DNA from: Paracoccus sp. M683
GTDB taxonomy: Bacteria; Pseudomonadota; Alphaproteobacteria; Rhodobacterales; Rhodobacteraceae
Reading direction: 5' to 3'
Assembly (NCBI RefSeq): GCF_007096355.1
Contig: NZ_VKDF01000013.1
Location: 1 to 64,000 of the forward strand
DNA length: 64,000 nt
A program made the translations under genes and the position numbers. The notes under the pieces were generated by a model that had not been told where the DNA came from, made no database searches, and worked only from the letters and a program-made list of their open reading frames with translations. Shown piece after piece: positions 8,854-31,522 of the stretch (position 1 is the first letter of the stretch; each line of letters begins with the position of its first letter).

Positions 8854-8955
8854 GCCGCTCACACCAGCCTATTCCGTCAGCGCCGACAATCGGCTATCAT
8901 CCCGCAACGATGCATGCAGGACGCCCCGCATCACCTCTCATTCAGGCGACCGCGC

Positions 8956-9450: not shown

Positions 9451-10387
9451 GGGCTCAAGCGCACCGTCGCCAGATCCTAAGATGGGTGAAGCCGCGCTTC
9501 TCTCGGCCAAGACCGGCCAAGACTATCTCAAGATCATGCGCGGGCAGATGGACATCGCCAATGAATGGGCGGCCACTGATCGCGAACGCCAGCAGGACGT
9601 GTTCATCCCGCTTGAGGACGAATACATCAAAGAGGCCCAGAATTGGGACAATCCGGGCCGGATCGCGCAGCGCGTCAGCGAGGCGCGCAGCGATGCACAG
9701 TTGCAAGGTCAGCTGGCCGAAGAAGGCGCGAAGCGGCAGGCGATGGCCATGGGGGTCAACCCCGGCTCTGGCCGGTTCCTCGCCGGGTCGCGAGCTGCGA
9801 AGATGAACACGGGGCTGGCCCGGCTCGGCGCAGGGAACACCGCGCGGCGCATGGTCCGCGCCGAGGCCGACCAGCGCGAGGCGAACGCGATCAACCTTGG
9901 CAAAGGACTTGCCGTCAACCCCGGCACATCGCTGGGACTCGCTAACGGGGCGGCAAGCAGCGGTTATCAGGGCGCCATGCAGGGCTATGGTCAGCAGGCC
10001 AATATTCTCGGCCAGGAGTTTGATCAGCGCATGTCGAAATGGCAGGCCGATCAATCATCCAGCGCCGGGCTGTGGGGCGCGATCGGCACCGTTGCTGGCA
10101 TGATGCCGATGCTGTCCGATGAGGATGCCAAGACCGACAAGAAGAAGCCGGGCCGGTCATTGCTCAAGGCGGTCGAGGACATGCCCGTAGAGGAATGGTC
10201 CTACAAGGACGGGCGCGGCGACGGTGGCCGCCACGTTGGCACCTATGCCCAGGATTTCCAGCGGGCAACTGGCGTCGGTGATGGCAGGACCATCAACGTG
10301 GTCGACGCCATCGGCACGACCATGGGTGCCATCAAGGAACTGTCCAAGAAGGTGGACAAGCTTCAGGGGCGGAGGATCGCGGCATGA
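9443..10387 (+). CDS. Phage internal virion protein with S74-like intramolecular chaperone end
   Basis: 314 aa from ATG 9443. The first 220 residues are helical, Gln/Ala/Gly-rich and charged (EDEYIKEAQNWDNPGRIAQR), with a short hydrophobic stretch at about 212-222 (AIGTVAGMMPM). From about residue 224 (SDEDAKTDKKK ... VEEWSYKDGRGDGGRHVGTY) the sequence is the peptidase S74/ICA-type module: S-D-x-x-x-K-T start, xxWxYK strand and VGTYAQDFQ-type motif. In tail spikes this module folds the trimer and then cuts itself off. Its place here, first of four genes for ejection-type proteins, suggests a T7 gp14-like role with a chaperone tail. It overlaps the next gene by 4 bp. Confidence 0.7.
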   Translation: MGKGSSAPSPDPKMGEAALLSAKTGQDYLKIMRGQMDIANEWAATDRERQQDVFIPLEDEYIKEAQNWDNPGRIAQRVSEARSDAQLQGQLAEEGAKRQAMAMGVNPGSGRFLAGSRAAKMNTGLARLGAGNTARRMVRAEADQREANAINLGKGLAVNPGTSLGLANGAASSGYQGAMQGYGQQANILGQEFDQRMSKWQADQSSSAGLWGAIGTVAGMMPMLSDEDAKTDKKKPGRSLLKAVEDMPVEEWSYKDGRGDGGRHVGTYAQDFQRATGVGDGRTINVVDAIGTTMGAIKELSKKVDKLQGRRIAA

Positions 10388-11175
10388 GCCGTTCCTTCGC
10401 CGCATTCGCAGAGGGCTTTGCCAGCAGCCGGCGCGCGCGCGCCGATGCAGATGAACGCACGGCGCAGCGTCAGATTGAACGAGACCGGATCACAGCGGAT
10501 CGTGATCTTGCGGCCTCTAGTGGTCGCCGTGTCATTCCTGATGCCGATTATCGCCCCCGCGAGGGTTCCGCGCCGCCATATCGCGATATGGCCGCATATG
10601 TCACTGATGGTCTGATCAACCGCGGCATGTCCCCGATGTTCGCCGACGCCTTTGTCATGAATTTCGATGATGAAAGCGGGCTGGATCCCGATATCACCGA
10701 GGGCGCGGCCAACGTTCACGGCACCTATGGGCGCGGCCTTTACCAACTGACCGACACCGCGCCGGGCGTGGGGCGCAGATCAGCCTATGAGAAATGGGCT
10801 CAGGATCGCGGCGACGATCTATACGGCGTCGATTCGCAGTTGGATTACCTCATGCACGAATTGAACGGATCAGAGGCCGCCGCTTGGAAGAAAATTCAGC
10901 GCGCCACGACGCGCGGTGAGGCGGCGTCCGAGATCGTTCGTTCGTTCCTGCGGCCGGCACGCGAGCATCGTGATCGCCGCATCGCAAAATATATGGGCCG
11001 CGATCTTCCGCGTTCTGATGCATCGGGGCGCCGCCTGCCTGCACCGGAACTGCCCACCGCCACCCCCGGCGCCGATATCGCTTCATCGTCCTCGGGCGCC
11101 GCGGGGCGCAAGTTCACCATGAACCCCGGCGCTGCCGGGCCGTGGCTGTCGTTCGGCCGCGCAATAGGAGCGTAA
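10384..11175 (+). CDS. Virion-associated tail lysozyme (phage_tail_lysozyme family)
   Basis: 263 aa. After a charged helical N-terminus the domain at about residues 70-205 shows NRGMSPMFADAFVMNFDDESG, then GTYGRGLYQLTD and DSQLDYLMHELNG, typical of tail-associated lysozymes that open a hole in peptidoglycan during DNA entry. The likely catalytic Glu is in DESG (about residue 96). The end is a Pro/Ser-rich linker and a short tail. It is translationally coupled on the left (ATGA) and 3 bp from the next gene. It belongs with the neighbouring ejection proteins rather than with the lysis genes 20 kb downstream. Confidence 0.75.
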   Translation: MSRSFAAFAEGFASSRRARADADERTAQRQIERDRITADRDLAASSGRRVIPDADYRPREGSAPPYRDMAAYVTDGLINRGMSPMFADAFVMNFDDESGLDPDITEGAANVHGTYGRGLYQLTDTAPGVGRRSAYEKWAQDRGDDLYGVDSQLDYLMHELNGSEAAAWKKIQRATTRGEAASEIVRSFLRPAREHRDRRIAKYMGRDLPRSDASGRRLPAPELPTATPGADIASSSSGAAGRKFTMNPGAAGPWLSFGRAIGA

Positions 11176-11178
11176 GAC

Positions 11179-12639
11179 ATGAGCAGCGCCGGTATCGCCA
11201 GCTTCATCGACGGTTTCATCAGCGGGCAGGACATTCGCCGGCGCCGCGCGGACGAGGACAAGGACCGCGCATGGGATGAAAAGTCCCGTGCGCGGCAGGA
11301 AACGGCGTGGGGCCAGGACGATCAGGACCGCGGCCGCCGCATGGCGTGGGAAGATGAAACCCGTGGTCGCACCCGGACGGAATGGGCTCAGGGCGACGTT
11401 GACCGTTCCCGGCGGCATGCCCGCGAGGATTGGAGCTTTGACCGTGACAAGGTCGAAGCGGGCCGCGACGATACCCGTTTCGGATGGGAGGGCGAGCGTG
11501 AGGCGGATCGCAGGTCTGATCGCGGCCGCCGCATGGCGGTGGAGGATTACGAACAGGATCGGCGGCGCGCTGCAGATCAGCGCGAGGACCAGTTGCGCGA
11601 GGATATTGCCGCCGCCTATGACGAGGCGGAGCAGATGCACACGATCAGCAATGCGCCCGGCCCCGTGATCCCCGACACGGCCCCGGCCCAACCCCAATAT
11701 GAAGGCGGCCGCAATTTCGTCCTGCCGGGGACAGAGATCGCGCCGCAGCAGCGCGCCGCACCGCCCCAACAGTCCGCGCCGCAGGACCGGCGTTTCTCTG
11801 CTCAGTCGGAACCCGCCGCCCAGCCAACCGGGGCAAGGAATCAGCAGCCCGCCATCGCCCCGGCCAGCTCGGGACGCACCGTGGTGCCAGCCGATGTCGA
11901 CCAATTCGATGCCAAGGCCGTGAAAGCGGGTAGCAGCTTCATGGACGCCTATCGCGACGGCCCGGCGCAGAAGATCATTGGCGCCTATATGCGGGCGGGC
12001 GATATCGACAAGGCCGAGAAGTTCGAGACCTTCATGGATAATGGCCAGACCAAGGAAGCCCTCGGCCACTGGTCCAAGGCGATCTATGCGGCGCAGGCCG
12101 GCAATGCGCGCTCGTTTGCCGAAAACCTCGCCCGCGCCTACAACACGCGCGGGTATTTTGACGACGGAATTGATGCGGTCATCGAGAAGTCGGAAATCGT
12201 CCAGGACGACAAGACCGGGCGCATTTCCGGCCACATCACCTTTGTCGACACCCGCACGGGCGAGGAAATGCAGATGCCCTTTGACGGGCTCGATGATCTT
12301 TACCGTTCCGGCATTGGCATGCTGTCGCCCGAGCAGGTTTTCGAACGGGGCTATGAGCAGGTGCAGAGGGCCGATGAGCGGCAAGCCGCGATCGTGGACG
12401 CCTATCAAAAAGGGTTCGACAAGGAGCCGACCGACACCGACATGGACCGGATCACCGATGCGCTGGACATGATCGCCAAGTCGCCCGAGGGTATGGGCAT
12501 GTCGGCAGATGAGCAGATGCAAGCTGCGCTTGCCTTCGTGGCGCAGTTCGACGGGAAAGGTCGCTATGTCGGCAAGCCCGCCGGTTCTGGCGAGGCCGCA
12601 ACCGCACCCAGCAACGACGTTCCGATCTTCATCCGCTGA
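11179..12639 (+). CDS. Arg/Asp-rich internal virion protein, family unknown
   Basis: 486 aa from ATG 11179. The first 150 residues are an extreme charged helix (RRRADEDKDRAWDEKSRARQ, EDETRGRTRTEWAQGDVDRS), Trp-containing and almost certainly a long coiled coil. A Pro/Gln-rich linker follows (about 185-235). The C-terminal half is helical-globular (MDAYRDGPAQKIIGAYMRAG ... GHWSKAIYAAQAGNARSFAE), like tail-tube or ejection subunits in which helical repeats alternate. It lies between the tail lysozyme and the giant protein, the place of T7 gp15. No enzyme motif is visible. Confidence 0.6.
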   Translation: MSSAGIASFIDGFISGQDIRRRRADEDKDRAWDEKSRARQETAWGQDDQDRGRRMAWEDETRGRTRTEWAQGDVDRSRRHAREDWSFDRDKVEAGRDDTRFGWEGEREADRRSDRGRRMAVEDYEQDRRRAADQREDQLREDIAAAYDEAEQMHTISNAPGPVIPDTAPAQPQYEGGRNFVLPGTEIAPQQRAAPPQQSAPQDRRFSAQSEPAAQPTGARNQQPAIAPASSGRTVVPADVDQFDAKAVKAGSSFMDAYRDGPAQKIIGAYMRAGDIDKAEKFETFMDNGQTKEALGHWSKAIYAAQAGNARSFAENLARAYNTRGYFDDGIDAVIEKSEIVQDDKTGRISGHITFVDTRTGEEMQMPFDGLDDLYRSGIGMLSPEQVFERGYEQVQRADERQAAIVDAYQKGFDKEPTDTDMDRITDALDMIAKSPEGMGMSADEQMQAALAFVAQFDGKGRYVGKPAGSGEAATAPSNDVPIFIR

Positions 12640-12972: not shown

Positions 12973-15900
12973 GTGCCAAAACCTCAACCGATGGGGCTTT
13001 CATTGGCACGCCTTCCCTTCTCGACCGACCCGTATTCCGAGCAAATCGAACAGGAAAAATCCGCACTGCGTGGCCGGGGCGTGGTCCTGCCCGGCGATGA
13101 GCCGGTGAAGGAGAAGCCAAAGGTCGACGGGGCAAGCACGAAAGCCGAGATCGAGGCGATTTCGCGAGAATCGAACGTTCCGGCAAACGTTCTGATGGCG
13201 CTGGCCGAGAAGGATGGCGCGGGCGATGGCGCCGCGGCGATCGAAAGCGCGCGGCGCAACGCCCAATCGCTGCGCGGGAAGGATCTGGCGGCCACCGTTG
13301 ATGGCGCCGTCCTTGACCGCGCCGAGGCCATCCGAAAGGCCGTCTATCCCGATGCCCCGAACACGGTCTCGGTGAAGAAGGATGACCCTTTCGAGGGCGA
13401 AGGCGTCGGAAGTCTGCTGAAGCGGCGCGGCCAGCAGTTAATCGCCGGGGCAACAGATGCAGTTGCGGGCGTGGCCGAGGGCGCGGCGCTGGCCGAGCGG
13501 GCGCGGCGCGACGATGCCAACGACCTGATGACCGTTCAGGCAGAGGAATTGTCCAAGCGCATCGACGCAATGCGGGCAAACCTTCCGAAGATGACGCCAG
13601 CGCAGCGCGAGAGCGCGGAACGCATTCTTCCGAACCTGGAACAGAAGCTGTCGACCTATCAGCGCGGCATGGATGCAACCCGCAAAGGGCGCAGTCTGGC
13701 CGACACCGGCGCCTATCAGGCTGGCACCGCCATCAAGGACGCATCGAAGGAAACGTTCGGCGAGCCTGACAAGCGCGATGATGGCCTTTGGAGCCAAGTC
13801 GCCCGAGGCGGCGGCAACGTTGTGGGCATGATCGGCACAGCCCTCTCACCCGTTGGCGCGGGCGGGGCGGCGCTTTCCGGCATGGGCATGACCCAGCGCC
13901 AGATGTATGAGGAAGCGCTTGCATCAGGGGTCGACGAGAAAACGGCCACCCAGGTCGCCCAGATCGGCACCGCCATCGGCATGACTGAAATGGTGCCGGT
14001 GCTGAACGCGATCAAGCCTTTGGCCAAGCCGCTGCAGCAACGCATCACCGGCACGCTGTCCCGGCGCCTGATGAAGATCGCGGAATCCTCGGGCGAGGAA
14101 GCCGCACAGGAGGCGCTGTCGCAGCTCATGCAGAACGCGACGGCGAAGGGCTATTATGACCCGGATCGCGGGATCATGGATGGCGTGGGCATGGCGGCGC
14201 TGGTCGGCGGGATCATTGGGGGCGGCATGGGCACCGTGGGTGCCATGCGCACGCCTGGGGAAAAGCCCCAGCCCGAGGCCTTGCCTGCCCCTGATCGTCT
14301 CGCGTTGCCTTCGCCCGGCGCCTTTGCCCTTCCCGCGCCGTCAGATCGAAGCCGCGCTGGCCTGAATTTCCCCGGCGCCCCCCGGATCGTCAATCCGCAG
14401 GGTGGCGCGGCTGCGCCCGCCTCTGACCCTTTCCCGCAGGTCGATGAGAAAGGACGGCTGGAAAAGGCGCTTGAGCGCGCCCCCGGCGCTGCGCCTGTGG
14501 CCGCCGGCATTCCGGGTGTCGAGCCAGGTTCGACCATCACCGTCACTGATGGGCCGACCGGAGAGGTCTTTTCCGATGCGGTGTTCATCGGCGCCACGGA
14601 TCGCGGCATTGAGGTAGAGATTGCGGGCGAGCGCCTGACGATCGATCCGAACGAAATCACCAGTGGCGCGGTTTCGATCGCCCCTGTCGCTGCCCCGGAA
14701 CAGGAGGCCGGAACTGATGCAGACATCATTGCCCGCGATGAAGGTGAGCCCGCGACTGAACCTGTCCTGCCTGACAGTGCCGATGACGCGCGTGATGGAC
14801 GCGGAGCGGGCGACGCTGGACCTGTGCTGCATGGGGATACTGACGCCCGCGCTGGCGCAGGAAATGCGGAAACTGATGCTGAGCGAGGCGATGCTTCCGT
14901 TCTCGCATCCGATGATTCCGGTCTTGCAGGCGGTCTGGCTGTGGAGCCTGATGCCGGGCAGCGCGATGCAGCACTGACACCGCGTGATCCGCTGGGCGCA
15001 AAGGCTCAGTCTGCCGTCGATCAGATCACACCGCCCGGTGCGCGCCGCGTGACGATCGAGGACGAGATCGCCGCCATGTCGCCGGAACAGGCGCGAAAGT
15101 CCCTGACCAGCCTCCAGCAGGCCGCCAGATCGCAGGGCTGGAACCTTCGCAGGACGCGGATGCGCGATGCGCTTGAAAAGGTGATTGCCGCCGCGCCGCC
15201 CGCCGTGATCGACACGGAAAGCGAGGCGCTGACCGGCGAAATCATCACTCCCGAGGACGATGCGGCGCGTCAGCAGGATGCTGCCAAGCAAGCCGGTTTC
15301 GAATTGACCGCACCGCCTGTGCCTGCCCGCGCCCCGTGGTGGACCAACGCCGACGAGGCAACCCGCGCGGCCATTGTGAAGGAGGCCGGGCCCATCGCTG
15401 CGCGCGACCTCAAGGATGCGATGGTCTGGGATCGCATGACCAATGATGGCAAGCGTGCGCTTCAAGATGCCTATGGCCGGCTTTACCGTGCAGGCAAGAT
15501 CGAGAATGCGGGAACGATCGAGGCACCGCGCCCCGCACTTGCCGCGATGGATAAGGCATCGCTCGTGATCGAGCCGATCCGCGCCAAGGCTGCGATCCTG
15601 CGGGGCTGGACCGGGCCCGATGCGCCCGAAGTGCCTGGCGTGTCCATCAAACACGACGCCAAGGAAGGCGGCTGGATCTTCTCGCGAAAGCATGAGGACA
15701 AGGTTCGCAGTGCTTTGGGCCTTATGGGCACCCCAGCGCCCGAAGTCATCGCGCAGGCGCCAACCGTGGCCGATGCCGCAGCAGAAACGGCACCTGATCC
15801 AAATGACGCGCCGGAAACCGTGGAATCTGGACCTAAGCCGCTGCCCAAACCGAGCGAACGCGCCGAAATGATGGCCGAAGCCATGGGGCTGGATGACCCT

Positions 15901-18900
15901 TACTCCGCAGGACGCATTCAGGAGGAAGCAGAGCGCGAGGGTTGGGAAAATCTGGCATTCCAGTTCAAGATCGAAAAACCAGATGGTCGGCATTCCTATG
16001 CGTGGACGGACTCGCAAGGCAAGGTGATCGCGCGGATGAAGCGCATGGGCATGCCTGCCGCGCTCAAGGACGGTCGGTATCGTGATGCCCTGTCGGCGGC
16101 GATCCCGGTGGCCGAGGCGAAGTTCAAGCCCGCATGGGCGTTCCGTAAAGCGTGGGAGGCGCCGGGCGAAGTCAGGGCACCGCAGAAGAACACACCGGCT
16201 CAGGATAGGCCAAAGCCGGGTGATTCCGCCTATACCCGCGACGACGCGGTTGCCGACCTTCACGCACTGGAAGGACAGCGTAACGGCGGGATGATCGCCG
16301 ATGCGAGGCTGGAAGAACGCATCAACAAGCAGCGAAATCTAGTCGAAAGCCTGTCAAAGTCGGAGGCCGACACGACAGCGGGCAGCCGCGAAGATCCCGC
16401 GCCGGCGCGGGAACGCGCATGGAGCAACCCACCCGCGCCCCTATCCCCGCAACCACACGGCCCGCGCCGTTTTGATTGGTGGTGGACGAACAACCCGAAC
16501 AAGCGCGGTGTGGCGCTGGCAAACGCGCGCCTTGACACCTCGCTGAGTCGGAAACTCTCGGGGGAGGTGAGCGACGCCCTGACGCCGGATCAGTATGGCG
16601 CGCTGACGGATGCCATCTTTGGTCCGCATGCCGAAAACAAGCCCACAAAGTCTACGCCGAAAATCCAGCAGGCGCAGGCGCAAGCGGCCCAGGTGGAAGA
16701 ACCTGCACAAGTTGCGCCGAAAGTAGCCCAGCCCACGCAGGGCGTTCTGGGGGTTCTGTCGCAGGAGAAGCAGGACCGTGCGGCGGAACTGAAAGCCCGG
16801 CTGGCCGCCAAAGCGCGCAATCAGGCCAGCAGCGGCATTGACCCGGAATACATCACTCTGGGCGGCGAACTGGTCGCGCTCTATATCGAGGCCGGCGCCA
16901 AGCGGTTCGGCCAGATGCTGCGCGATTTCGCGGAATCGACCGGGCTGACGCTGCGCGAGGCTCAGGCGCCGATGCGCGCAGCCTATAATCATGTTCGCGA
17001 CGACATGGACCTGAACGGACAGGACGTGTCCGACATGGACGATGCGGCGGCCGTCATGGCCGAGGTTCGGGCGGCGCTGGCCGAGGCCGACGCGGCACCT
17101 GACCAATCCGCCATCTCGCAATCCCCGGCGGAAAATGATAACATCGCTGCAGGACAAGAGCCCGAGGAAGCGAGCGATGATCGGCGAACTGATGGCAGCA
17201 ATGCGGGAGCAAGCCCCCGGCGAGGGCCGGAAGCTGACCAAAGCGGGCGGACCCAAAGCCTGGGAGAACCGGGTGCGAGAGGTGGTCGCCCGAACGCGCG
17301 CGACGATGGACCCGGACGGGAAGATCGCGGCGCAAGGGCCGAACGAGGCGCAGATGCTGAACGAGACGATCTTTCACGAGTCGCTGGCGGAACTGACCGC
17401 GCCGACCGAGGCGCCCGAAACCATGTAATTCCCGAGGGCGGTCTTGCCCTCGCCGGGGGCGACAAGACGCGCGCCCGCAATGCCGTCAAAGCCATCGAGA
17501 CACTGCGCACGCTCGAACGCGAAGGACGACCGGCAAGCCGGGACGAGCGCCAGGCCCTATCACTCTATAGCGGATCCGGAACGCTGGCGCCCGCGCTGCC
17601 CAACAGCGAGGGCAAGGTCCGTTTCCCCGATATCGCTGCCGATCTGGACCGCCTCCTGACGCCAGAGGAACGGGCAACCGTCGAAAAGACCAGCCAATAT
17701 GCCTTCTACACGGCTGAACCCGTTCTGCGGAATATGTGGAACCTCGCGATGCAGTTGGGCATCACAGGGGGTCAGGTGTTCGAGCCGGGCATGGGCGTCG
17801 GTGGCTTCGCCGGAACCATGCCGAAAGGCTTCTTCGGCAAGTATTCCGGTATCGAACTGGATCACATCACGGCCAAGATCGCGGCCGCTCTCTATCCCAA
17901 TCACCACATCAAGCATGGCGACTTCATCAAGACGCCCATGCCTCAGGACTATTACGATCTGGCCATCGGCAACCCGCCTTTCGCGCGCACCCAGATCAAG
18001 GCCGACCCTTCATATCCGCAGGGGTTCATGATCCACGACTATTTCTTTGCCAAGACGCTGGACAGCGTAAGGCCGGGTGGCCTGCTGATGTTCGTGACCT
18101 CGGCCGGGACCATGAACAAGATCGACAGCAAGGCTCGCGACTATATGGCCGACCGTGCCGATCTGGTCGGCGCGATCCGCCTGCCGAACACGGCCTTTGC
18201 CGAAAACGGGACGCAGGTCACGACCGATATCATCGTTCTGCGCAAGCGCCATGCCGGGGAGGCCGAGGCAGATCCGTCATGGCGGGAATCGACGGCTGTT
18301 GCGCTGCCGGACAAGGACGGCGGCACGGTGGAACTGGCGGTGAACCGTTATTTTCAGGCGCATCCCGAAATGATCTTGGGCGAGCAAGGCGCATTTGACA
18401 CGCTGGTCGGGCGGCCGCGTATCGGCGTGCGGGCCAAGCCTGAGGCGGATCTTGCCACCGATCTGGCAGCTGCTGTCGCGCGCTTCCCGCGCAAGATCAC
18501 ATCTATGGGCGATCCGCAGCAGATGATGATCGGGCCTCGCGACGCCAAGGCGGGCGAGACAAAGGCCGGCTCGTATTACCTGAAGGATGGCGACCTGTGG
18601 CAGTTCGACGGGTCCGAGGGCAAGCCGGTTCAGCGCCGCGCCAAGGGCCAGTCTGGTCTGACCAAGGCCGACTATGAACTTGTCACCGACCTTCTGCCGT
18701 TGCGGAATGCGTTGCGCGAGGTCTATTCCGCCGACCTGGCTGGAGCGGACGCCGTAAAGGCACGAAAGCGGCTGAACAAGGAATATGACGCCTTCGTTTC
18801 CAAGCGCGGGCCGATCAACAAGGTCGAAACGACATTGCGCCGCCCCAGTGCCGTGCAGATGGAGGGACTGCGTCAACAGGCGGCAGAGGACGCCCGCGCC

Positions 18901-21900
18901 GCCGGCGCCTCGTTCGATATCGGCAGCTTCGATGCCGGACCGATGATAGAGGGAGGCGCAACCCTCGCCCAGATCGCCCGCGCGAGGCGCGAGGCATCCC
19001 AGCAGACCGGATACCGGGAAGGCGATTTCGACCCTGATGCGGTCGATGACATTGAGGTCAACAGCTTCCCGAACATCGACGCATTCAGCGATGATCCTGA
19101 GAATTTCAGGCTGCGGGCGATCGAGAAATATGATCGCGAGACCGGCATCGCGACCAAGACGCGCGTGTTCACCGAGAATGCGATCAACAAGAGTGTTCGG
19201 CCCAAGATCAACTCGCCAGAAGATGCGCTTCTGCACCTGCTGGCTGAGACCGGCCGCGTGGATATCGACCGCATTGCGGATTTGTCGGGGTCAAGCGCAG
19301 CAACGGTTCGCGAGGAACTGGCTGACAAGGTATTCGAGAACCCGGCCACGGGCGAATTTGAGACCCGCGCGAAATACCTGTCGGGGAACGTCCGGGCAAA
19401 ATTTCGCGAAGCGGAAGCGGCAATGCGCCGTGACGACCGTTTCAAGACCAACGTTGACGCTCTGGCGGCCGTCCTGCCCGATCCTATCCCGCGATCAGCA
19501 ATCGTCGTTCCGTTGGGTGCGCACTGGTTCGACCATGGCCTCTACGGCGAATTTGCCAAGGCCAAGGGTCTGAACCTCAAGGCCGAGTTCAAGCCTGCTC
19601 TGGGCTTGTGGGTGGTCGATGGCGACACGCGATCATTGGACGCACGGAACGCATGGGGGACCGAGGATCTGCCATTTGCCGATCTGATGCGCCGGGCCAT
19701 GAACAACAAACCCATGCGCGTGACAAGGACGGTCAAGAGCAGCGACGGCAGCACGTCCACCACCGTCGATGAGGAAGCCACACAGGCGGCAGCCGAGAAA
19801 GCGACCGAGATCAAAGCCGCATTTCAGGAATGGCTGTGGTCGGACGAGGCGCGCGCGGACCGGCTTGAGGAACAGTATAACGAAACGTTCAATGCCGAGG
19901 TCGCGCCATCATACGATGGTGGATATCTGACGACGCCCGGTGTCTATTCCGATTGGTCCTGGCGCCCGCACCAGACAGCGGTGATCGCGCGTATCCTGCA
20001 ATCGGGGTCGACCTATATGGCCCACACGGTCGGCGCCGGCAAAACGTCTGCCATGATCGGGGCCGGGATGGAGGCGCGGCGCCTCGGGCTGGCCAGGAAG
20101 CCTTGGTATGTGGTGCCAAACCATATGCTCGTGCAGTTCGCGACCGAATTTCAGCACCAGTATCCGCTGGCCGATATCCTTGTGGCAGACGAAAAGCGGT
20201 TCCACACCGACCGGCGCAAGCAGTTCGTCGCTGACGCAGCGACCGGAGAGTTCGATGCGGTGATCATCACTCATTCCGCGTTCGAGAAGATCCCGGCGAG
20301 CGAGGCGGCCAAGGGCCGCGTGGTGCAAGGCATCCTTGATGATATCCGCGAAATGGTGGATTCGGGAAACGACACCGGAGACCGCGGTAAGGATGCAGGC
20401 CAGCAGCAGGCCACGCTTGGCGCGCTTAACTCCATCGCCGCCCAGCTTGGCATCAAGATCGAGAAGGAAAAGGGTGTCAGCACAGCCAAGAAGATCGCGC
20501 AGGTTCTGGAACAGGCTGAACAGCGGCTGTCGAAGCTGACCAGCGACACCCGCAAGGATGCAGTGTTCGATTTTGATGAGATCGGCGTGGATATGCTGTT
20601 CGTCGACGAGGCGCATCTGTTCCGAAAGCTGTCCTTCGCGACGACCAACGGCAATATCAAGGGGATCGACCCGGCCGGTAGCCAAGCGTCCATGGACCTG
20701 TTCATCAAGTCACGGATCGTGAACGAGCGAAATCCGGGGCGCGGGCTGGTCTTGGCATCGGGAACACCCATCACCAACACCATGGCCGAACTCTATACGC
20801 TTTCGCGGCTGATGCAGCCGGAGGCGCTGGAGGAACGCAATATCACGGCGTTCGACGCTTGGGCTGCAACCTTTGGCGAGGTGGCTTCTGAACTCGAACA
20901 GACCCCCGATGGCGGCTACAAGGAGGTCTCGCGCTTCTCGAAATTCGTGAACACGCCGGAATTGTCGCTGATGGTGCGGCAGATCATGGACGTTGTGACC
21001 TCTGCCGACCTCGAACAGTATGTGACCCGACCGAAGCTGAAGGATGGCGGGCGAAATCTTGTGGTGGTCGACGCAACACCTGAGCAGCAGGCGTTTCAGG
21101 GTGCACTTGCGGCACGCATGACCGCGATTTCCAAGCGCAAAGGGCCGGTGCAGAAGGGTGATGATATCCTGCTTTCGGTCATCAACGACGGGCGACTGGC
21201 CGCAATCGACATGCGTCTGGTCGACCCGTCGAGCGATGGCGCCGGCTCGAAGCTGGAGCGCATGATCGGCAATATCTTCAAGAGGTGGAAGGACGGTGCT
21301 GACGCTGGCTTTCATTCGGTCAAGCCCGGCGGCGGCTATGCCGACAAGCCCACCATGCGCGGCCCATCCACGCAGATCGTCTTTTCCACGCTTGGAATCG
21401 ACGCCAGCAAGCACAACCCGGATTTCTCGGTGCATCGCTTCATCAAGGCCGAACTGATGCGCCGCGGTGTTCCAGAGCGGGATATCGTGCTGGCCAAGGA
21501 TCTGAAATCGCATGCCCAGAAACAGCGGGCATTCAACGACATGAACGAGGGCAAGAAGCGTATCCTCGTTGGGTCGAAATCCATCTTCACGGGCGTTAAT
21601 GCGCAACGCCGCATCGCCTCAATCCACAACCTCGATCCGCTCTGGTATCCGGCCGACGATGAACAACGCAACGGTCGCGGGCTGCGCCAGGGCAACATGA
21701 ACCCCGAAATCGAGATTCTGGATTACTCTACCAAGGGCACCTATGACGCAACCATGTGGCAGATGATGGCGCGCAAGGCGGCGTTCATCGAGGCCTTCTA
21801 TCGGGGCGACCCGACCCAGCGCGACATGGAAGACATGGGTGAGGCCAGCCAATTCGAGCAGGCGAAGGCCATGACGACGCGCGATCCGCGCATCCTCAAA

Positions 21901-24900
21901 CTGACCGACATGAAGGCTGCGCGCGACAAGCTGCGGCGACGTGCCGGCGCTGTGGACACCCAGCGGGCCCGGTTGCGCAGCGAGATCCGCACCAAACTGC
22001 GGGAAATGGAGTTCTACGACGAGAAGATCGAGCGTGCCGAGCCAATCGCGGCCAGTGTGCCGGACCTGAGCGGCGACAAGTTTGCAATCAAGATCGGGGG
22101 CAAGAACTTCGACAGCCGATCGGACGCCGGAAAGGCGTTGATCAATGTAGCCGAGGAAATGGCTGCAGCCAACGTCTATGTCGAGGAACAGCGCGTCGGC
22201 GAGATCGGCGGATTTACCATCGAGGCCATGCACCGGATCACGGACGGGTCGACCAGCTTCTCGGTCAGGTTCGCGGCTGATGAAGATCAGGATGCGGGAT
22301 GGAGTGATGATGCTGTCGGGCTGGTCCGCAGGATCGAAAACGCGCTGAACGCGCCGGCGAACAAGCTTGACTATTACCGGAAGAACCGCGCGCAGTCCGA
22401 AAAGGCCGCAGAGGCCGCCCGCAAGTCCCTTGCCGAGGTGAAGGACTTTGCCCAGGCCGACGAACTCGCGCAGACAGATAGTGATATCGCGGCTCTGGAA
22501 GCCGAACTGCTGGCCGACAGCGCCAGCAACGACGCGCCGAAGGAATCTCGCTTCGGCGATGAACCTGTTGCCACCCTGACCGGGAACGAGTTGGGCGAGT
22601 GGTCCGATATGCTGGACCTGCAGCGCAAGGCGCGGAAATGGTATCGTGAAAACCTGCAAGGTTCCACGGTCGTCAACCTTGCCACGGGCTGGCCGATCAA
22701 GTTCACCCGTGCGGGAAGCGGCAAGATAGGCGGCAAGCGGCCCGACTACCTGTTGAAGGCTGTCCCCGGTTTGTTTGACCTTCTCGAAAATGCGAAACTG
22801 GATGGACAGCCAGAAGCTGATCGGTATGCCCGTGAAGGGATGAAGGCATTCCATCGGTTCGTAGCGCCTGTTTCGATCGACGGAGATACCAAGCTGGTCC
22901 ACATGGTCATTCGCGAAATGCAGGATGGCCGCATGTTCTATGACTTGAACTTGGGTTCTGATGTCAGCGCCCGAGCCGAGGGCCCGATGGACGCGCGGGA
23001 AGCCCGCATGGAGCCAGAATTACAAATCAGCGCCGACACGCTCAATATAGCGTTTGCCGACGCGGAAATCAATTCCGACCCTAAGCTGACGCCCGCGCTG
23101 GCCCGACAAATAAACGAGGTGGCCCACGCAGAACTGGCCAAGGTCGGGATTGGCAGGCAGGTAAGCGCCGAGGCGGGCGGCGCCGGCAAGGCAACCGGCA
23201 GCTATCACGCGGGCGTCATCCGTATCCTGCGCAATCGAGGGCGAGGCTGGAAGCACACGCTGGATCACGAGATCATCCATGCGCTGCGCGACGGCGACCT
23301 GTGGGGCGGCAGTCATGGCCTTTTCACCGCCGAGGAATGGCGCACACTGGTCAAGGCAGCACGGAGCGATGCAGCGATCAAGGCGCGCGTCGAGAAGGCA
23401 TATTCCGACAAGTCGACAGTCCAGCAGACCGAGGAAATGGTTGCGGAACTCTATGCCGATTGGGCGCAGGGGCGGCGCACAGAGGCATCTGGCCCCCTTG
23501 GCCGCGCATTCCAGCGGATCCGCGACTTCTTCAGGGCTGTCGCCCGCGCCCTGCGGGGCGAGAACATGAACGAGGCCGCCGCGATCATGGAGCGCATCGC
23601 ATCGGGCGAGATCGGCGGGCGCGGTCCTGACGGGCCGGGCGGTGTCGACCGGCAGGCGATGCGGGAACAGCGAGAAATGGGGCCGTTTGGGGCTGTCATT
23701 CGGGGACATGAAGGTAACTGGAAAGATGCCGCGCTAGCTTTGGAGGCGATCAAGGACGGCGAGGCCGTCGATGCGCTGACCCATCCTGAAGTCGGAGGCA
23801 TAGCCCTTGTATGGGGAAAGGAAGGAACGAGCCGTAGCGACGGATACGGCCTGTCCAAGCTGATCGCCTGGCATCCCGAAATCTTGGACGATCTTCAAGG
23901 CCGGATCTCGCGCATGGTGGTGACAAGTCGGTCGGATAACCGCATCCAGCTTGAAAGCAAACGTGACCGCGCGGGCGTTCGCCTTGATTGGGATGGAAAA
24001 ACCGGCAAGTGGCTAATCGGAGCATATGAGAAAGGAGCACCGCGTCTCACCGAGAAGTTTACAGGCACTCTCAGTGAATTGTGGGGCGGCATGTCTCCGC
24101 AACCCCGGCGCGGCAATGGTGACTATACCACGACATCGCGCGAGGTCAAAGAGCAACGCGACATGGGCGGCACGACGCCGGAACAGGATCGTTCCTTGGT
24201 TCGGTCCATCCTCGACGGTGTGGCAGGTGCCGCGAAGGATGCCGGCCGCATTGCCAAGGGCCTGCCCGGCGAGATCAGGAAGCGCGGCACCAAAGAGGGC
24301 TTGTCCAATGCCCTGACTGACGCCATGGCCATGGGTGACAAGGGGAAAACCTCGATTCTGTCTCTGGTGCCGGGGCGGGCCCTCTTTACCGAACTGTCGA
24401 GCGAATTGCCCTCGGCGCGCACCTATCTGCGCACCAAGGATAATATGGACGCTCTGCGTAACGAATGGCATGCCCGCGCTGATGAGACGGCGCAGGGCTG
24501 GCGCAAGCTGCTGTCCGATGCGGACATGAACGCGGAACTGATGGACCTCATGCACGAGGCCACGCTGGCCCAGGTTGACCCCTCGGAGCGGCGCCAGTCC
24601 ACCATCGATGAAAACGACCGGCGGCTTGTCGATGAGTTCGCCGCGCACCCGCGCGTGCGTCAGGCGGCCCGTGATCGGATCGCGGCCGACGAGCGCGACG
24701 CCGCGCGCTGGTCCGATCTGCGCACCCGGTTCAACAAGTTGCCCAAAGCCTATCAGGATATGTTCCGCCGGGTGCGCGACGACTATTCGGCGATGGCCGA
24801 TGCGACCGAGGAAGCGGTTTTGGACAACGTGAAGAAGTCCATGGCGGCCGCGACGCGGCGGGCGCAACAGGTCTTTGACCGCCGTATGCGCGAGATCGCG

Positions 24901-27126
24901 GACGAGGGGTTGAAGGGCGACGAGAAGGCGCGGGCCGAGAAGGACGCGAAAGCAGCACTGACCCGCGCCAAGGCCCGCGGTGCTTTCGCCGCGCGACAGA
25001 AGGTGTCCGGGCTCAGGTCTCGATTCGAGGCGAACCGGCTGCAAGGCCCGTATTTCCCGCTGGCGCGCTTCGGCGACTTCTTCGCCACCGTCAGGGACGC
25101 ATCCGGCGAAGTGGTGTCCTTCTCTCGCTTTGAGCGCGAGCGCGATCTGAAGGCCTTTGCCGCCGAGATGAAAGCCACGCCGGGCTTGACCGTGGAACAG
25201 GGCGTGCTGTCGAACGCCAAGGACGTGCGCGGTTCGGTCGACCCCAATTTCGTGGCCGAGGTCGAGGCGATGCTGGGCGATGCTGGCGTCGGGGGCGACG
25301 TGATGGATCAGGTCTGGCAGCACTGGCTTGCGACGCTTCCCGATCTGTCGTTGAGGACGAACCGCATCCACCGCAAGGGCCGGACCGGGTTCAGCGCCGA
25401 CGCCTTCCGCGCCTTCGGTCGGCAAATGTTCCATGGCAGCCATCAGTTGACCCGCCTCAAGTATGGCGTCGACCTGACCGAGGCTCTGGACAAGATGGAT
25501 CGCGAGGCGCAACTGGCCAAAAATCCGGTGCGGGCCGGACTGGTCGTCAACGAGATGAACCGCCGGCACCAGTTCACCATGAACCCGACCAATGCGAGTT
25601 GGACGCAATGGTTCTCAAGCGGGGCCTTCGTGTGGCACCTCGCAATATCGCCGGCTTCGGCCATGGTCAACATATCGCAGACGACGGTTGTCGGCATCCC
25701 GATCCTGTCAGCAGCGTTCCAGAAGCAAGGTGCGACCGGCGCATCGCGCGAACTGGCGCGGGCGCTGGCCGACTTCACGCGCGGCCGCGGCCTGGCTGGA
25801 AAAAGCAGCAAGGTCAGCGATGATGAAATCCGGGCACTCGCTGCGGCCTATCATCGCGGCATGATCGACAAGTCGCAGGCGCATGACTTGGCGGGCGTGG
25901 GCGAGACAGGGGTGGAATACAGCGATGTGCGCGCGCGCTGGATGGCGAAAGCATCGTTCTTCTTCCACCACGCCGAGAGGCTCAACCGGGAAGTCACCTT
26001 CCTTGCCGCCTATCGAATGGCCCGGAAGGACGGACGGTCCCATGATACTGCGGTCGATCAAGCCGGGGATCTGACGTGGAAAACCCATTTCGATTACCAG
26101 AACACGAGCAAGCCTCGCTTCATGCAGGGGGATTTCCCCAAGGTGCTACTGACCTTCCGCAATTTCACGGTCAACATGCTGTGGCGCCTGTTCCGCGACA
26201 CGCATCAGGCGATCAACGCCGAGAAGCCCGCGGATCGCGCCGTCGCGCGGCGCCAGGTGCTGGGTATGACCGCCTCGATGATGCTGCATGCAGGTATCAA
26301 GGGGACTTGGGGCTATGGTATCGCGATGATGCTGGCGGGCCTGTTCTTCGACGGTGGCGACGACGAGGCAGAGGAAGAATTGAAGCGGATATTCGTCGGT
26401 TCGCCTGATGATACCGGCGCTGCTGCGGCGCTGCGCCGCAATATCGGCGGCCTGATGTTGAACGGACTGCCCGGCCATGTCACCGGAACCAGTCTGTCGG
26501 AGCGCATTGGCATGCCGAACCTCTGGTTCCGCGACAGCGGAAAGAACCTTGAAGGCAAGGACGCCTATCTTGAAATGCTTCAGGGTTTGGTTGGGCCGGG
26601 CGTTGGCCTGTTGGCGATCCCCTATGATGTGGCATCGGCCGCGTCTGATGGTCATTACTGGCGCGCGCTGGAGAAAGCCGTGCCCGGCGCGGTCGGCGAC
26701 GGCATGAAGTCCGGTCGGTATCTCTATGAGGGCGTCACGACCTGGAACGGTGATGACGTGGTGCCCGATGTTTCGGCCTATCAGGCACTCGTTCAGGCAA
26801 TCGGTTTCACGCCTGCAGAGGTCGCGGAACGATACGAGGCCAACCGGCGAATGATGAATGAGCAAGAGCGGCTGATGAACGAGCGTGGTTCGATCCAAGG
26901 CGCAGCAGCGAAGTCGATCATCAGCGGCGAGCCTTTGTCACCGAAGATCATGGACCAAATCAGGGATTGGAACCGCGAGGTGCCGGAATACCCGATCACG
27001 GCTGATACCATCCGGCAATCGGTGCAGGGCCGCCGTCGATCGAGCCAGCGGAACGAGTATGGTATCCAGTTGAACCCCAAGCTGAATAACCGGATCCGTG
27101 GTGAGCAGGCGGCCATGGTCTACTAG
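12973..27126 (+). CDS. Giant polyvalent virion protein: internal-virion segments + adenine methylase + SNF2-type helicase + zincin + PBECR nuclease
   Basis: 4717 aa from GTG 12973. By eye: residues ~50-110 are weakly transglycosylase-like; 270-430 is a Gly/Ala-rich hydrophobic region suited to membrane insertion; 430-1500 is a run of low-complexity linkers with small helical modules. About 1540-1770 is an N6-adenine methylase with FEPGMGVGGFAG and the catalytic NPPF at 1667-1670. About 2330-2930 is an SNF2-like helicase: Walker A GAGKT 2354-2358, DEAH 2545-2548, SGTPIT 2596-2601, and NGRGLRQG late. HEIIH at 3432-3436 marks a zincin. About 3570-3700 matches the PBECR (barnase/EndoU/colicin-like) domain (HPEVGGIALVWGKEG, then SRSDNRIQLESK). 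About 3760-4717 is a helical LPD38-like region with LTFRNFTVNMLWRL. Such polyvalent proteins are packaged and injected with phage DNA. One unbroken 14-kb frame argues for function. Confidence 0.85.
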   Translation: MPKPQPMGLSLARLPFSTDPYSEQIEQEKSALRGRGVVLPGDEPVKEKPKVDGASTKAEIEAISRESNVPANVLMALAEKDGAGDGAAAIESARRNAQSLRGKDLAATVDGAVLDRAEAIRKAVYPDAPNTVSVKKDDPFEGEGVGSLLKRRGQQLIAGATDAVAGVAEGAALAERARRDDANDLMTVQAEELSKRIDAMRANLPKMTPAQRESAERILPNLEQKLSTYQRGMDATRKGRSLADTGAYQAGTAIKDASKETFGEPDKRDDGLWSQVARGGGNVVGMIGTALSPVGAGGAALSGMGMTQRQMYEEALASGVDEKTATQVAQIGTAIGMTEMVPVLNAIKPLAKPLQQRITGTLSRRLMKIAESSGEEAAQEALSQLMQNATAKGYYDPDRGIMDGVGMAALVGGIIGGGMGTVGAMRTPGEKPQPEALPAPDRLALPSPGAFALPAPSDRSRAGLNFPGAPRIVNPQGGAAAPASDPFPQVDEKGRLEKALERAPGAAPVAAGIPGVEPGSTITVTDGPTGEVFSDAVFIGATDRGIEVEIAGERLTIDPNEITSGAVSIAPVAAPEQEAGTDADIIARDEGEPATEPVLPDSADDARDGRGAGDAGPVLHGDTDARAGAGNAETDAERGDASVLASDDSGLAGGLAVEPDAGQRDAALTPRDPLGAKAQSAVDQITPPGARRVTIEDEIAAMSPEQARKSLTSLQQAARSQGWNLRRTRMRDALEKVIAAAPPAVIDTESEALTGEIITPEDDAARQQDAAKQAGFELTAPPVPARAPWWTNADEATRAAIVKEAGPIAARDLKDAMVWDRMTNDGKRALQDAYGRLYRAGKIENAGTIEAPRPALAAMDKASLVIEPIRAKAAILRGWTGPDAPEVPGVSIKHDAKEGGWIFSRKHEDKVRSALGLMGTPAPEVIAQAPTVADAAAETAPDPNDAPETVESGPKPLPKPSERAEMMAEAMGLDDPYSAGRIQEEAEREGWENLAFQFKIEKPDGRHSYAWTDSQGKVIARMKRMGMPAALKDGRYRDALSAAIPVAEAKFKPAWAFRKAWEAPGEVRAPQKNTPAQDRPKPGDSAYTRDDAVADLHALEGQRNGGMIADARLEERINKQRNLVESLSKSEADTTAGSREDPAPARERAWSNPPAPLSPQPHGPRRFDWWWTNNPNKRGVALANARLDTSLSRKLSGEVSDALTPDQYGALTDAIFGPHAENKPTKSTPKIQQAQAQAAQVEEPAQVAPKVAQPTQGVLGVLSQEKQDRAAELKARLAAKARNQASSGIDPEYITLGGELVALYIEAGAKRFGQMLRDFAESTGLTLREAQAPMRAAYNHVRDDMDLNGQDVSDMDDAAAVMAEVRAALAEADAAPDQSAISQSPAENDNIAAGQEPEEASDDRRTDGSNAGASPRRGPEADQSGRTQSLGEPGARGGRPNARDDGPGREDRGARAERGADAERDDLSRVAGGTDRADRGARNHVIPEGGLALAGGDKTRARNAVKAIETLRTLEREGRPASRDERQALSLYSGSGTLAPALPNSEGKVRFPDIAADLDRLLTPEERATVEKTSQYAFYTAEPVLRNMWNLAMQLGITGGQVFEPGMGVGGFAGTMPKGFFGKYSGIELDHITAKIAAALYPNHHIKHGDFIKTPMPQDYYDLAIGNPPFARTQIKADPSYPQGFMIHDYFFAKTLDSVRPGGLLMFVTSAGTMNKIDSKARDYMADRADLVGAIRLPNTAFAENGTQVTTDIIVLRKRHAGEAEADPSWRESTAVALPDKDGGTVELAVNRYFQAHPEMILGEQGAFDTLVGRPRIGVRAKPEADLATDLAAAVARFPRKITSMGDPQQMMIGPRDAKAGETKAGSYYLKDGDLWQFDGSEGKPVQRRAKGQSGLTKADYELVTDLLPLRNALREVYSADLAGADAVKARKRLNKEYDAFVSKRGPINKVETTLRRPSAVQMEGLRQQAAEDARAAGASFDIGSFDAGPMIEGGATLAQIARARREASQQTGYREGDFDPDAVDDIEVNSFPNIDAFSDDPENFRLRAIEKYDRETGIATKTRVFTENAINKSVRPKINSPEDALLHLLAETGRVDIDRIADLSGSSAATVREELADKVFENPATGEFETRAKYLSGNVRAKFREAEAAMRRDDRFKTNVDALAAVLPDPIPRSAIVVPLGAHWFDHGLYGEFAKAKGLNLKAEFKPALGLWVVDGDTRSLDARNAWGTEDLPFADLMRRAMNNKPMRVTRTVKSSDGSTSTTVDEEATQAAAEKATEIKAAFQEWLWSDEARADRLEEQYNETFNAEVAPSYDGGYLTTPGVYSDWSWRPHQTAVIARILQSGSTYMAHTVGAGKTSAMIGAGMEARRLGLARKPWYVVPNHMLVQFATEFQHQYPLADILVADEKRFHTDRRKQFVADAATGEFDAVIITHSAFEKIPASEAAKGRVVQGILDDIREMVDSGNDTGDRGKDAGQQQATLGALNSIAAQLGIKIEKEKGVSTAKKIAQVLEQAEQRLSKLTSDTRKDAVFDFDEIGVDMLFVDEAHLFRKLSFATTNGNIKGIDPAGSQASMDLFIKSRIVNERNPGRGLVLASGTPITNTMAELYTLSRLMQPEALEERNITAFDAWAATFGEVASELEQTPDGGYKEVSRFSKFVNTPELSLMVRQIMDVVTSADLEQYVTRPKLKDGGRNLVVVDATPEQQAFQGALAARMTAISKRKGPVQKGDDILLSVINDGRLAAIDMRLVDPSSDGAGSKLERMIGNIFKRWKDGADAGFHSVKPGGGYADKPTMRGPSTQIVFSTLGIDASKHNPDFSVHRFIKAELMRRGVPERDIVLAKDLKSHAQKQRAFNDMNEGKKRILVGSKSIFTGVNAQRRIASIHNLDPLWYPADDEQRNGRGLRQGNMNPEIEILDYSTKGTYDATMWQMMARKAAFIEAFYRGDPTQRDMEDMGEASQFEQAKAMTTRDPRILKLTDMKAARDKLRRRAGAVDTQRARLRSEIRTKLREMEFYDEKIERAEPIAASVPDLSGDKFAIKIGGKNFDSRSDAGKALINVAEEMAAANVYVEEQRVGEIGGFTIEAMHRITDGSTSFSVRFAADEDQDAGWSDDAVGLVRRIENALNAPANKLDYYRKNRAQSEKAAEAARKSLAEVKDFAQADELAQTDSDIAALEAELLADSASNDAPKESRFGDEPVATLTGNELGEWSDMLDLQRKARKWYRENLQGSTVVNLATGWPIKFTRAGSGKIGGKRPDYLLKAVPGLFDLLENAKLDGQPEADRYAREGMKAFHRFVAPVSIDGDTKLVHMVIREMQDGRMFYDLNLGSDVSARAEGPMDAREARMEPELQISADTLNIAFADAEINSDPKLTPALARQINEVAHAELAKVGIGRQVSAEAGGAGKATGSYHAGVIRILRNRGRGWKHTLDHEIIHALRDGDLWGGSHGLFTAEEWRTLVKAARSDAAIKARVEKAYSDKSTVQQTEEMVAELYADWAQGRRTEASGPLGRAFQRIRDFFRAVARALRGENMNEAAAIMERIASGEIGGRGPDGPGGVDRQAMREQREMGPFGAVIRGHEGNWKDAALALEAIKDGEAVDALTHPEVGGIALVWGKEGTSRSDGYGLSKLIAWHPEILDDLQGRISRMVVTSRSDNRIQLESKRDRAGVRLDWDGKTGKWLIGAYEKGAPRLTEKFTGTLSELWGGMSPQPRRGNGDYTTTSREVKEQRDMGGTTPEQDRSLVRSILDGVAGAAKDAGRIAKGLPGEIRKRGTKEGLSNALTDAMAMGDKGKTSILSLVPGRALFTELSSELPSARTYLRTKDNMDALRNEWHARADETAQGWRKLLSDADMNAELMDLMHEATLAQVDPSERRQSTIDENDRRLVDEFAAHPRVRQAARDRIAADERDAARWSDLRTRFNKLPKAYQDMFRRVRDDYSAMADATEEAVLDNVKKSMAAATRRAQQVFDRRMREIADEGLKGDEKARAEKDAKAALTRAKARGAFAARQKVSGLRSRFEANRLQGPYFPLARFGDFFATVRDASGEVVSFSRFERERDLKAFAAEMKATPGLTVEQGVLSNAKDVRGSVDPNFVAEVEAMLGDAGVGGDVMDQVWQHWLATLPDLSLRTNRIHRKGRTGFSADAFRAFGRQMFHGSHQLTRLKYGVDLTEALDKMDREAQLAKNPVRAGLVVNEMNRRHQFTMNPTNASWTQWFSSGAFVWHLAISPASAMVNISQTTVVGIPILSAAFQKQGATGASRELARALADFTRGRGLAGKSSKVSDDEIRALAAAYHRGMIDKSQAHDLAGVGETGVEYSDVRARWMAKASFFFHHAERLNREVTFLAAYRMARKDGRSHDTAVDQAGDLTWKTHFDYQNTSKPRFMQGDFPKVLLTFRNFTVNMLWRLFRDTHQAINAEKPADRAVARRQVLGMTASMMLHAGIKGTWGYGIAMMLAGLFFDGGDDEAEEELKRIFVGSPDDTGAAAALRRNIGGLMLNGLPGHVTGTSLSERIGMPNLWFRDSGKNLEGKDAYLEMLQGLVGPGVGLLAIPYDVASAASDGHYWRALEKAVPGAVGDGMKSGRYLYEGVTTWNGDDVVPDVSAYQALVQAIGFTPAEVAERYEANRRMMNEQERLMNERGSIQGAAAKSIISGEPLSPKIMDQIRDWNREVPEYPITADTIRQSVQGRRRSSQRNEYGIQLNPKLNNRIRGEQAAMVY

Positions 27127-31169: not shown

Positions 31170-31216
31170 GAGTTTGCTCCATGACATGGGTGCGGAGGGG
31201 CGATGGATCGGCCGGG

Positions 31217-31405: not shown

Positions 31406-31426
31406 CGCCCCTCCTTTCTGAATACA

Positions 31427-31455: not shown

Positions 31456-31522
31456 TTATAATATGTATATAAATACACAAAATTTCATCAACCTGCCTGT
31501 GAGAAATCAAGGGAAATCCGAC

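Follow-up and report, generated by a model that had tools for sequence, protein, structure and literature searches.

A giant DarB-like polyvalent protein, probably an ejection protein with antirestriction cargo, encoded in a Bcep22-like prophage region of Paracoccus sp. M683

Introduction

The locus considered here raises the question of what a single 14-kb gene, which joins a methylase, a helicase and a protease in one chain, may do next to the virion genes of a prophage, and whether it represents something new. The stretch analysed (hereafter the window) comprises 64,000 nucleotides of Paracoccus sp. M683 (RefSeq assembly GCF_007096355.1, contig NZ_VKDF01000013.1, positions 1 to 64,000 of the forward strand); it is the start of an 82,241-base contig in a 4.4-Mb genome assembled in 81 contigs. 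The gene occupies positions 12973..27126. A preliminary description had proposed that its product enters the cell with the phage DNA, acts at once on host defences and belongs to an undescribed system.

Our analysis suggests that the gene, carried by a Paracoccus prophage, most probably encodes the giant, DarB-like and polyvalent ejection protein of a Bcep22-like podophage, a modular delivery protein with antirestriction cargo. Entry with the DNA and action on host defences are judged likely, and for the window protein we infer ejection, cutting and antirestriction. The claim of an undescribed system was rejected: the protein is one more member of an already described family, which PHROG 10089, the NCBI model NF032893, Iyer et al. 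2017 (PMC5512222) and the papers on phages JC1, Parlo and Atu_ph08 cover, the protein class having been described by 2017. The MPTase, the methylase-SNF2 dyad, PBECR, LPD3 and LPD39 are all named by Iyer et al. What goes beyond the published accounts found in the open-licence literature is the N4-like N-terminus, the fixed place of the HExxH motif and the exchange of cargo among Paracoccus prophages. In the main text of the Paracoccus virome paper (PMC6536676) the words helicase, DarB, antirestriction and polyvalent never occur, and methylase occurs once.

Results and Discussion

The giant protein and its family

The gene is intact, as had been proposed: from a GTG start the frame runs through 4,717 codons with no internal stop. 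In the other five frames across 12973-27126 no stop-free run exceeds 665 codons, and the chance of a stop-free run of the size of the giant gene at 63% GC is about 10^-58. Its features are the following (window coordinates, strand, residues of the protein).

12973..27126 (+), gene of the giant DarB-like polyvalent protein, 4,717 amino acids, GTG start
13135..13323 (+), residues 55-117, remnant of a lytic-transglycosylase-like domain
13252..14286 (+), residues 94-438, N-terminal module, like that of the N4 virion RNA polymerase (vRNAP) by profile, with an EExxQExxxxLxQN block and hydrophobic segments
17347..18852 (+), residues 1459-1960, methylase region (FEPGMGVGGF, NPPF)
19957..21942 (+), residues 2329-2990, SNF2-type translocase (GAGKT, VDEAH, SGTPITN, QRNGRGLRQGN)
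22606..22941 (+), residues 3212-3323, LPD3 (E 5e-27)
23092..23604 (+), residues 3374-3544, zincin-like metallopeptidase, with HEIIHALRD at 3432 and EEMVAE downstream
23671..24087 (+), residues 3567-3705, PBECR-like domain between the protease and the C-terminal module, with Gly 3683 in place of the presumed catalytic Thr
24304..24927 (+), residues 3778-3985, LPD39, first part of the C-terminal module (E 4e-57)
25045..27087 (+), residues 4025-4705, tail-700 (PLxRFG) region, helical C-terminal module

The protein matches the profile of PHROG 10089 ("DarB-like antirestriction") over its whole length, in five stretches (E = 0, 2509 bits), and the tail-700 model NF032893 with 731 bits. Several unlike domain activities stand in one chain inside a virion gene block, at a place conserved in the blocks of Bcep22-like podophages, and the protein can be called polyvalent, as the preliminary description had it. 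In a tblastn search of 50,697 phage records, 118 matched residues 1-2999 and 89 matched residues 3001-4717. Relatives with genes of about 3,600-5,200 codons were found in phages JC1, PEp14, POI1126, Atu_ph08, LASTA, Y7, Mwe-JY07, Skulduggery, Parlo, VvAW1, 8P and BcepIL02, and the phage relatives fetched include proteins of about 3,600-4,900 amino acids annotated as DarB-like; the PDB held no sequence relative of the whole protein at E 0.1. The tail-700 model matches in 9 of 148 genomes among relatives, 9 of 390 of its order and 3 of 385 of its class, each count including the genome of the window. In two of the relatives, the giant gene is annotated in two pieces (Sinorhizobium phage PBC5, L009) or as genes on the opposite strand (Pseudomonas phage Itty13, L007), where sequencing or annotation errors are possible.

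The closest known systems are the DarB-like proteins of Bcep22-like phages (JC1 gp69, BcepIL02 gp70, PEp14_00027), which share size, gene place and the methylase-helicase pair with the window protein. The N-terminal module is common to the window, JC1, BcepIL02, PEp14, POI1126 and Atu_ph08, and the LPD39/tail-700 module to the window, PEp14, POI1126, LASTA and Atu_ph08; in the shared modules the identity of the window protein to those of JC1, PEp14, LASTA and POI1126 is about 32-44%. The window protein differs from this group by a decayed transglycosylase and a different context of HExxH.

The methylase-translocase pair

The methylase recognised earlier by its NPPF was found at residues 1667-1670, with motif I as FEPGMGVGGF, and Eco57I matches the slice with E 4e-6. 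In the window protein, seven phage homologues and P1 DarB, methylase motifs I and IV can be aligned, as can the stretches that we take to be helicase motifs Q, I, Ia, II, III, V and VI. The full set of SNF2 motifs announced in the preliminary description is not shown, because the stretch taken for motif IV does not align across this set; the remainder of the set stands. In this fusion of an NPPF adenine methylase with an SNF2 translocase, both with their motifs kept, the window protein agrees with the DarB-like family. Comparison with the prophage protein of P. hibiscisoli gave ratios of non-synonymous to synonymous substitution rates (dN/dS) of about 0.24 (methylase) and 0.20 (helicase), dS being near saturation, and the pair therefore appears to be under constraint.

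The pair of P1 DarB aligns with that of the window in pieces, at 21-33% identity. DarB is located in the P1 head and protects against EcoB and EcoK; it differs from the window protein in its length of 2,255 amino acids, in lacking HExxH, in having NVPF where the window has NPPF and in being packaged by means of an N-terminal signal and helper proteins.

The N-terminal region and the N4 virion RNA polymerase

By profile comparison, the ~345 N-terminal residues appear to be akin to the corresponding region at the N-terminus of gp50, the virion RNA polymerase of N4. Residues 95-440 of the window protein and the equivalent part of five other rhodobacterial giant proteins were scanned singly, and all six matched phrog_2206 (virion RNA polymerase), with the best E at 2.3e-13 and that of the window at 1.4e-7. 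A hidden Markov model (HMM) built from the six members matched N4 gp50 at 107-439 (E 1.1e-7) and the vRNAP of Sulfitobacter phage EE36phi1 at 227-410 (E 5.4e-6) in a small search set of 116 proteins and their 116 reversals, of which the best reversal reached E 0.049. The alignment includes a specific block, Y...GMS.E.A ... EEGVQ.A...LAQN. Among 24 relatives (25 proteins with the C-terminal module, one duplicate removed) the N-terminal module was seen in 14, always before the C-terminal module and, where the methylase-helicase pair is present, before that pair as well.

The order of an N-terminal module, cargo, an HExxH domain and a helical C-terminus agrees with the layout of N4 gp50, although sequence kinship was detected for no part other than the N-terminal module. 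The N4 protein gp50 is ejected; it consists of an N-terminal domain, likely membrane-spanning and lipid-binding and not resolved in the structure, followed by the RNA polymerase, an HExxH domain (2124-2375) and a large helical C-terminal part, which represses the polymerase (PMC12633501). Its HExxH motif is at 2228 and its C2 part begins at 2376; it differs from the window protein in carrying RNA polymerase as cargo and in a C-terminal part that has no detectable sequence kinship to that of the window. In the account of Iyer et al. (PMC5512222), queries with the N4 N-terminal and polymerase regions retrieved only the T7-type RNA polymerase module of related phages and prophages. The relevant parts of PMC5512222 and PMC11437467 contain no link between the N-termini of DarB-like proteins and virion RNA polymerase, and the word "polyvalent" does not occur in the searched text of the N4 structure preprint (PMC12633501).

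A 3,912-amino-acid hypothetical protein of Ruegeria phage 45A6 (L256, 10978-22716) shares with the window protein the N-terminal module (E 5e-30) and the type of zincin (E 2e-30); its match to the C-terminal module is not significant.

Overlapping the start of the N-terminal module, the transglycosylase-like domain seems to have decayed: the ES and GLMQ residues, which we take to be the transglycosylase motif, are present in PEp14 and LASTA but missing from the window protein. That the separate tail lysozyme encoded at 10384..11175 replaces this activity is only a guess, because the window lysozyme found a tblastn match in just one of the 22 loci searched (L119).

The zincin protease and its place

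The HEIIH at residue 3432, put forward earlier as a protease, lies inside a zincin-like model (AlphaFold, predicted local distance difference test (pLDDT) 80). The signature of the zincins is present, and the downstream EE and A are invariant in 17 of 17 rows, the rows having been selected by HExxHALR; the Asp after HExxH, which marks one type in Iyer et al., occurs in the window and not in every aligned row.

The place of the motif appears to be fixed. HExxH lies at most 650 residues upstream of the C-terminal module in 18 of the 24 proteins (within 500 in 17), compared to a mean of 0.3 and a maximum of 2 after shuffling. A second set was drawn from viral contigs (79 of 80 loci with an open reading frame (ORF) for the module, 68 left at 90% identity and 67 with at least 700 residues upstream), most of its ORFs being cut off at 10 kb; it includes the window protein and overlaps the first set (PEp14, LASTA, PBC5, Parlo and others). 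In this set HExxH is found in the 650 residues ahead of the C-terminal module in 50 of 67 proteins, or in 54 if HExxxH is counted (shuffling, 0.9 with a maximum of 3), and 51 of all 59 HExxH motifs fall in that upstream stretch, which makes up 17% of the residues. The distance from HExxH to the module is 131-220 residues in 39 of the 50; in the window it is 345, with the PBECR domain in between. Sections 5, 8, 14 and 19 of Iyer et al. (PMC5512222) do not mention a fixed place of the protease.

The PBECR-like domain had been presented as a nuclease. The domain itself is clear from homologues that share its helix His, the Pfam PBECR1 profile giving 16.9 bits over 32 profile positions, below the cut-off of 27.6. 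The rows aligned came from 46 viral loci and the window, with identical ones dropped and the window protein appearing twice owing to its IMG/VR copy; the helix His was found in 43 of 43 and the C-terminal position was Thr in 38, Ser in one and Gly in four (the window, its IMG/VR copy, L210 and L212). According to Iyer et al. (PMC5512222), His and Thr/Ser form the active site of five of the six PBECR families. Nuclease activity is doubtful since Gly 3683 occupies the Thr/Ser position and half of the active-site pair is lost; the kinship of the domain holds, and it probably does not cut here. PBECR stands behind the protease in the window and before the methylase in Atu_ph08, Itty13 and PBC5, which points to a mobile domain. 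Related PBECR-type domains with 45-55% identity lie ahead of the methylase at 1806-1945 in L006, 1210-1350 in L007 and 192-331 in L009.

The zincin and PBECR domains could alternatively be effectors directed against host proteins or RNA, the zincin not processing its own protein. Both roles are considered by Iyer et al. for domains of this kind, and they report that the N4 vRNAP is packaged unprocessed despite its HExxH domain (PMC5512222), and the HExxH stretches found at the same place differ in sequence context. The fixed place between the cargo and the C-terminal module is, however, better suited to self-processing, and the loss of the PBECR Thr argues against an active RNase, so that we regard the effector explanation as unlikely.

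The C-terminal module and the exchange of cargo

The C-terminal module was modelled over 941 amino acids as a helical array (pLDDT 80, predicted template modelling score (pTM) 0.77). In BFVD the model matched unnamed viral proteins with E down to 3e-58, proteins with polyvalent-associated names from 9e-26 and, at E 3.5e-5, a protein of Roseobacter phage CRP-4 named "Internal virion protein D"; the lists from the PDB include, below significance, chain 9jyy_I of a T7 core protein (E 2.0) and chain 8vb2_A of a PhiM1 ejectosome (Z 4.1). Kyte-Doolittle peaks of at least 1.3 at residues 156, 283, 405, 2163, 4231 and 4531 are in agreement with the hydrophobic segments noted in the preliminary description. 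Homology of the module to the C2 part of N4 was considered and set aside: the HMM search returned no row for N4 gp50, a reversed decoy having the lowest E (0.019), and the PDB fold search with the large 941-residue model gave no significant match.

The tail-700 region is present in eight other Paracoccus genomes (of 147). Six of these regions were examined and yielded four long proteins, the module ORFs of genomes G018 and G021 being of only 1,093 and 643 amino acids. The giant protein of P. hibiscisoli (G016) retains the methylase-helicase pair; in its place G069 and G057 have a pyrophosphatase, LPD5 and LPD1, and G013 has a DdrB-type ParB domain and PBECR3. LPD3, HExxH and LPD39 occur in all four long proteins, as does tail-700, by which the set was chosen. 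In the viral-contig set, 45 of the 67 proteins carry a pair of this type within the portion seen, a count that covers this type only and scores Parlo as without, for which helicase and methyltransferase domains were reported (PMC6606913). From sequence comparison, the Paracoccus prophages appear to retain the C-terminal part and to exchange the enzymes ahead of it, and this make-up suggests a delivery scaffold with exchangeable enzyme cargo.

The same data bear on the idea that the protein is mainly a structural ejection protein, a conduit like T7 gp16, whose enzymes serve genome entry, with the SNF2 motor pulling the DNA, and not antirestriction. The place of the gene would fit the last and largest ejection protein, and the helical C-terminal model, with its match to the CRP-4 protein and the non-significant listing of T7 and PhiM1 chains, might be compatible with such a role. 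The methylase is nevertheless retained with its motifs under constraint, and three of the Paracoccus relatives show, in a Pfam scan, other domains in place of the methylase and helicase families, so that the motor cannot be needed for entry in all of them. A mainly structural role therefore seems quite improbable.

Proposed mechanism

Under the reading that we prefer, that of an ejection protein with antirestriction cargo, the giant protein would be packaged in the capsid and would exit through the tail with or before the DNA, like beads on a string. The N-terminal module may anchor in or cross the envelope, as has been proposed for the N4 virion RNA polymerase, allowing the methylase-translocase pair to reach the entering DNA and to modify it or guard it against restriction, in the way that P1 DarB protects DNA from type I enzymes. 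The metallopeptidase, situated between the enzyme cargo and the helical C-terminal module, would most likely cut there, before or after entry, and free the cargo. The virion-peptide test suggested in the preliminary description finds a partial answer in a published relative: JC1 gp69 was detected in virions purified in caesium chloride (CsCl) with 51 unique peptides, 15.6% coverage and the second-highest score of the table (PMC9144972).

A broader proposal, which we make tentatively and hold somewhat less probable than its opposite, is that giant DarB-like proteins and the N4 vRNAP are variants of one modular protein-delivery machine, whose cargo the phages swap while keeping the delivery parts. 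Such a machine would consist of a common N-terminal envelope module, a cargo bay (occupied by RNA polymerase, methylase-translocase, pyrophosphatase-LPD5 or ParB nuclease), a protease whose fixed position allows it to release the cargo, and a helical module at the C-terminus by which the cargo is packaged or restrained. If the protease site and the N4-like module hold, the delivery of half-megadalton enzymes into the cell would become testable on a defined scaffold, and if the layout holds, cargo exchange would explain shifts of podophages in first-minute counter-defence. Two parts deserve to be followed up, the kinship of the N-terminus with N4 and the position of the protease motif at the edge of the cargo.

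A number of observations weigh against the preferred reading of an ejection protein with antirestriction cargo. The N4 link lies in a glycine/alanine-rich stretch (25 bits, bias 30) and needs profiles, because plain tblastn of the N-terminal module on phage records retrieved one record for each of two queries and no N4-like phage; at the cut-off used the module was not seen in 10 of the 24 relatives. HExxH is absent from the stretch before the C-terminal module in 6 of 24 and 17 of 67 relatives, among them the Agrobacterium and Sinorhizobium phages with PBECR ahead of the methylase. In Foldseek searches of the PDB neither model found anything below E 0.001 (best 0.11 for the zincin and 0.9 for the C-terminal module). 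A second structure search with the zincin model speaks for the fold, its top 20 chains being mostly metallopeptidases or their relatives by title, with Z scores of 4.5-7.1, and the HExxH region of N4 gp50 being listed at Z of about 3; the tool cautions, though, that Z under 8 may reflect only a common arrangement. The virion proof concerns a relative with a different C-terminus, since JC1 gp69, like the BcepIL02 protein, lacks the LPD39/tail-700 module at the cut-offs used. The antirestriction of P1 requires further proteins besides DarB. Finally, queries with portal, capsid and large terminase proteins found no match anywhere in the assembly of this genome, and an intact prophage could not be upheld.

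The last point raises the possibility that the gene is an inactive passenger of a dead prophage. The same portal, capsid and terminase proteins, unmatched here, do match prophages of the Paracoccus genomes G016 (P. hibiscisoli) and G057 in a scripted tblastn search; closer portal and capsid queries matched three of six genomes (the query source G016, G057 and G069) and not that of the window, whose contig begins just downstream of the expected position of the capsid gene. With no head genes detected, the window copy may belong to what remains of a prophage, or else the assembly may be broken at the contig start. On the other hand, 14 kb free of stops with the motifs kept speaks against decay, and the missing part may fall into an assembly gap among the 81 contigs. 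We consider an inactive passenger a serious possibility, though the less probable one.

The prophage setting and neighbouring genes

An IMG/VR viral contig of 32,717 bases is 100% identical to the window at the two places compared, with the same coordinates, and the viral call therefore probably covers window bases 1-32,717. The neighbouring genes of this part are the following.

3309..4886 (+), internal virion protein, phrog_511, homologue of JC1 gp61 (annotated as head closure protein)
8914..9450 (+), acyl-CoA N-acyltransferase, also a neighbouring gene in Bcep22-like phages
9443..10387 (+), phrog_8003, a structural protein of the virion that is a conserved neighbour among Bcep22-like phages
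10384..11175 (+), separate tail lysozyme, Phage_lysozyme2 (E 8e-21), two genes upstream of the giant gene
11179..12639 (+), 486-amino-acid virion protein, phrog_9667, corresponding in position to BcepIL02 gp69 and to PEp14_00026, for which similarity to Bcep22 gp74 is noted
31463..32161 (+), endolysin, Glyco_hydro_108 and PG_binding_3

The upstream tail lysozyme of the preliminary description is thus confirmed. Far from being absent from related virion gene blocks, which would have told against the earlier proposal, the giant gene has neighbours whose counterparts were matched in Paracoccus prophages and in JC1, PEp14, POI1126, LASTA, Parlo and Skulduggery. In PEp14 and LASTA the internal virion protein, the acetyltransferase, the two virion proteins and the giant protein are matched in the same order; in JC1 the 486-amino-acid protein is unmatched and the other genes of the block are matched. 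The acyl-CoA N-acyltransferase (8914..9450) found no match in three long Paracoccus loci (L023, L024 and L026), and in Atu_ph08 and PBC5 the virion block is on the strand opposite to the giant gene.

A D12-class adenine methyltransferase gene (PF02086, E 4e-15) is located at 252-860 (-), close to where the contig begins and immediately ahead of the first conserved virion genes; this placement fits a prophage end that is rearranged or truncated. Between the 486-amino-acid protein and the giant gene there is a 75-amino-acid reverse-strand ORF, 12646-12870 (-), with no Pfam match, and POI1126 likewise has a small reverse gene ahead of its giant gene. Directly after the giant gene follows a 748-amino-acid ORF, 27245-29491 (+), with no Pfam match and weak PHROG matches, at the place where JC1 has two small reverse genes. 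A HicB-like antitoxin gene, 30774-31427 (-) (PF15919, E 4e-23), is situated between the giant gene and the endolysin. To the right of the prophage part there are transposase-like genes at 35309-36190 (+), 40349-41848 (+) and 48652-49509 (-), with the domains DDE_Tnp_1, Mu-transpos_C_2 with rve, and rve with HTH_21, respectively.

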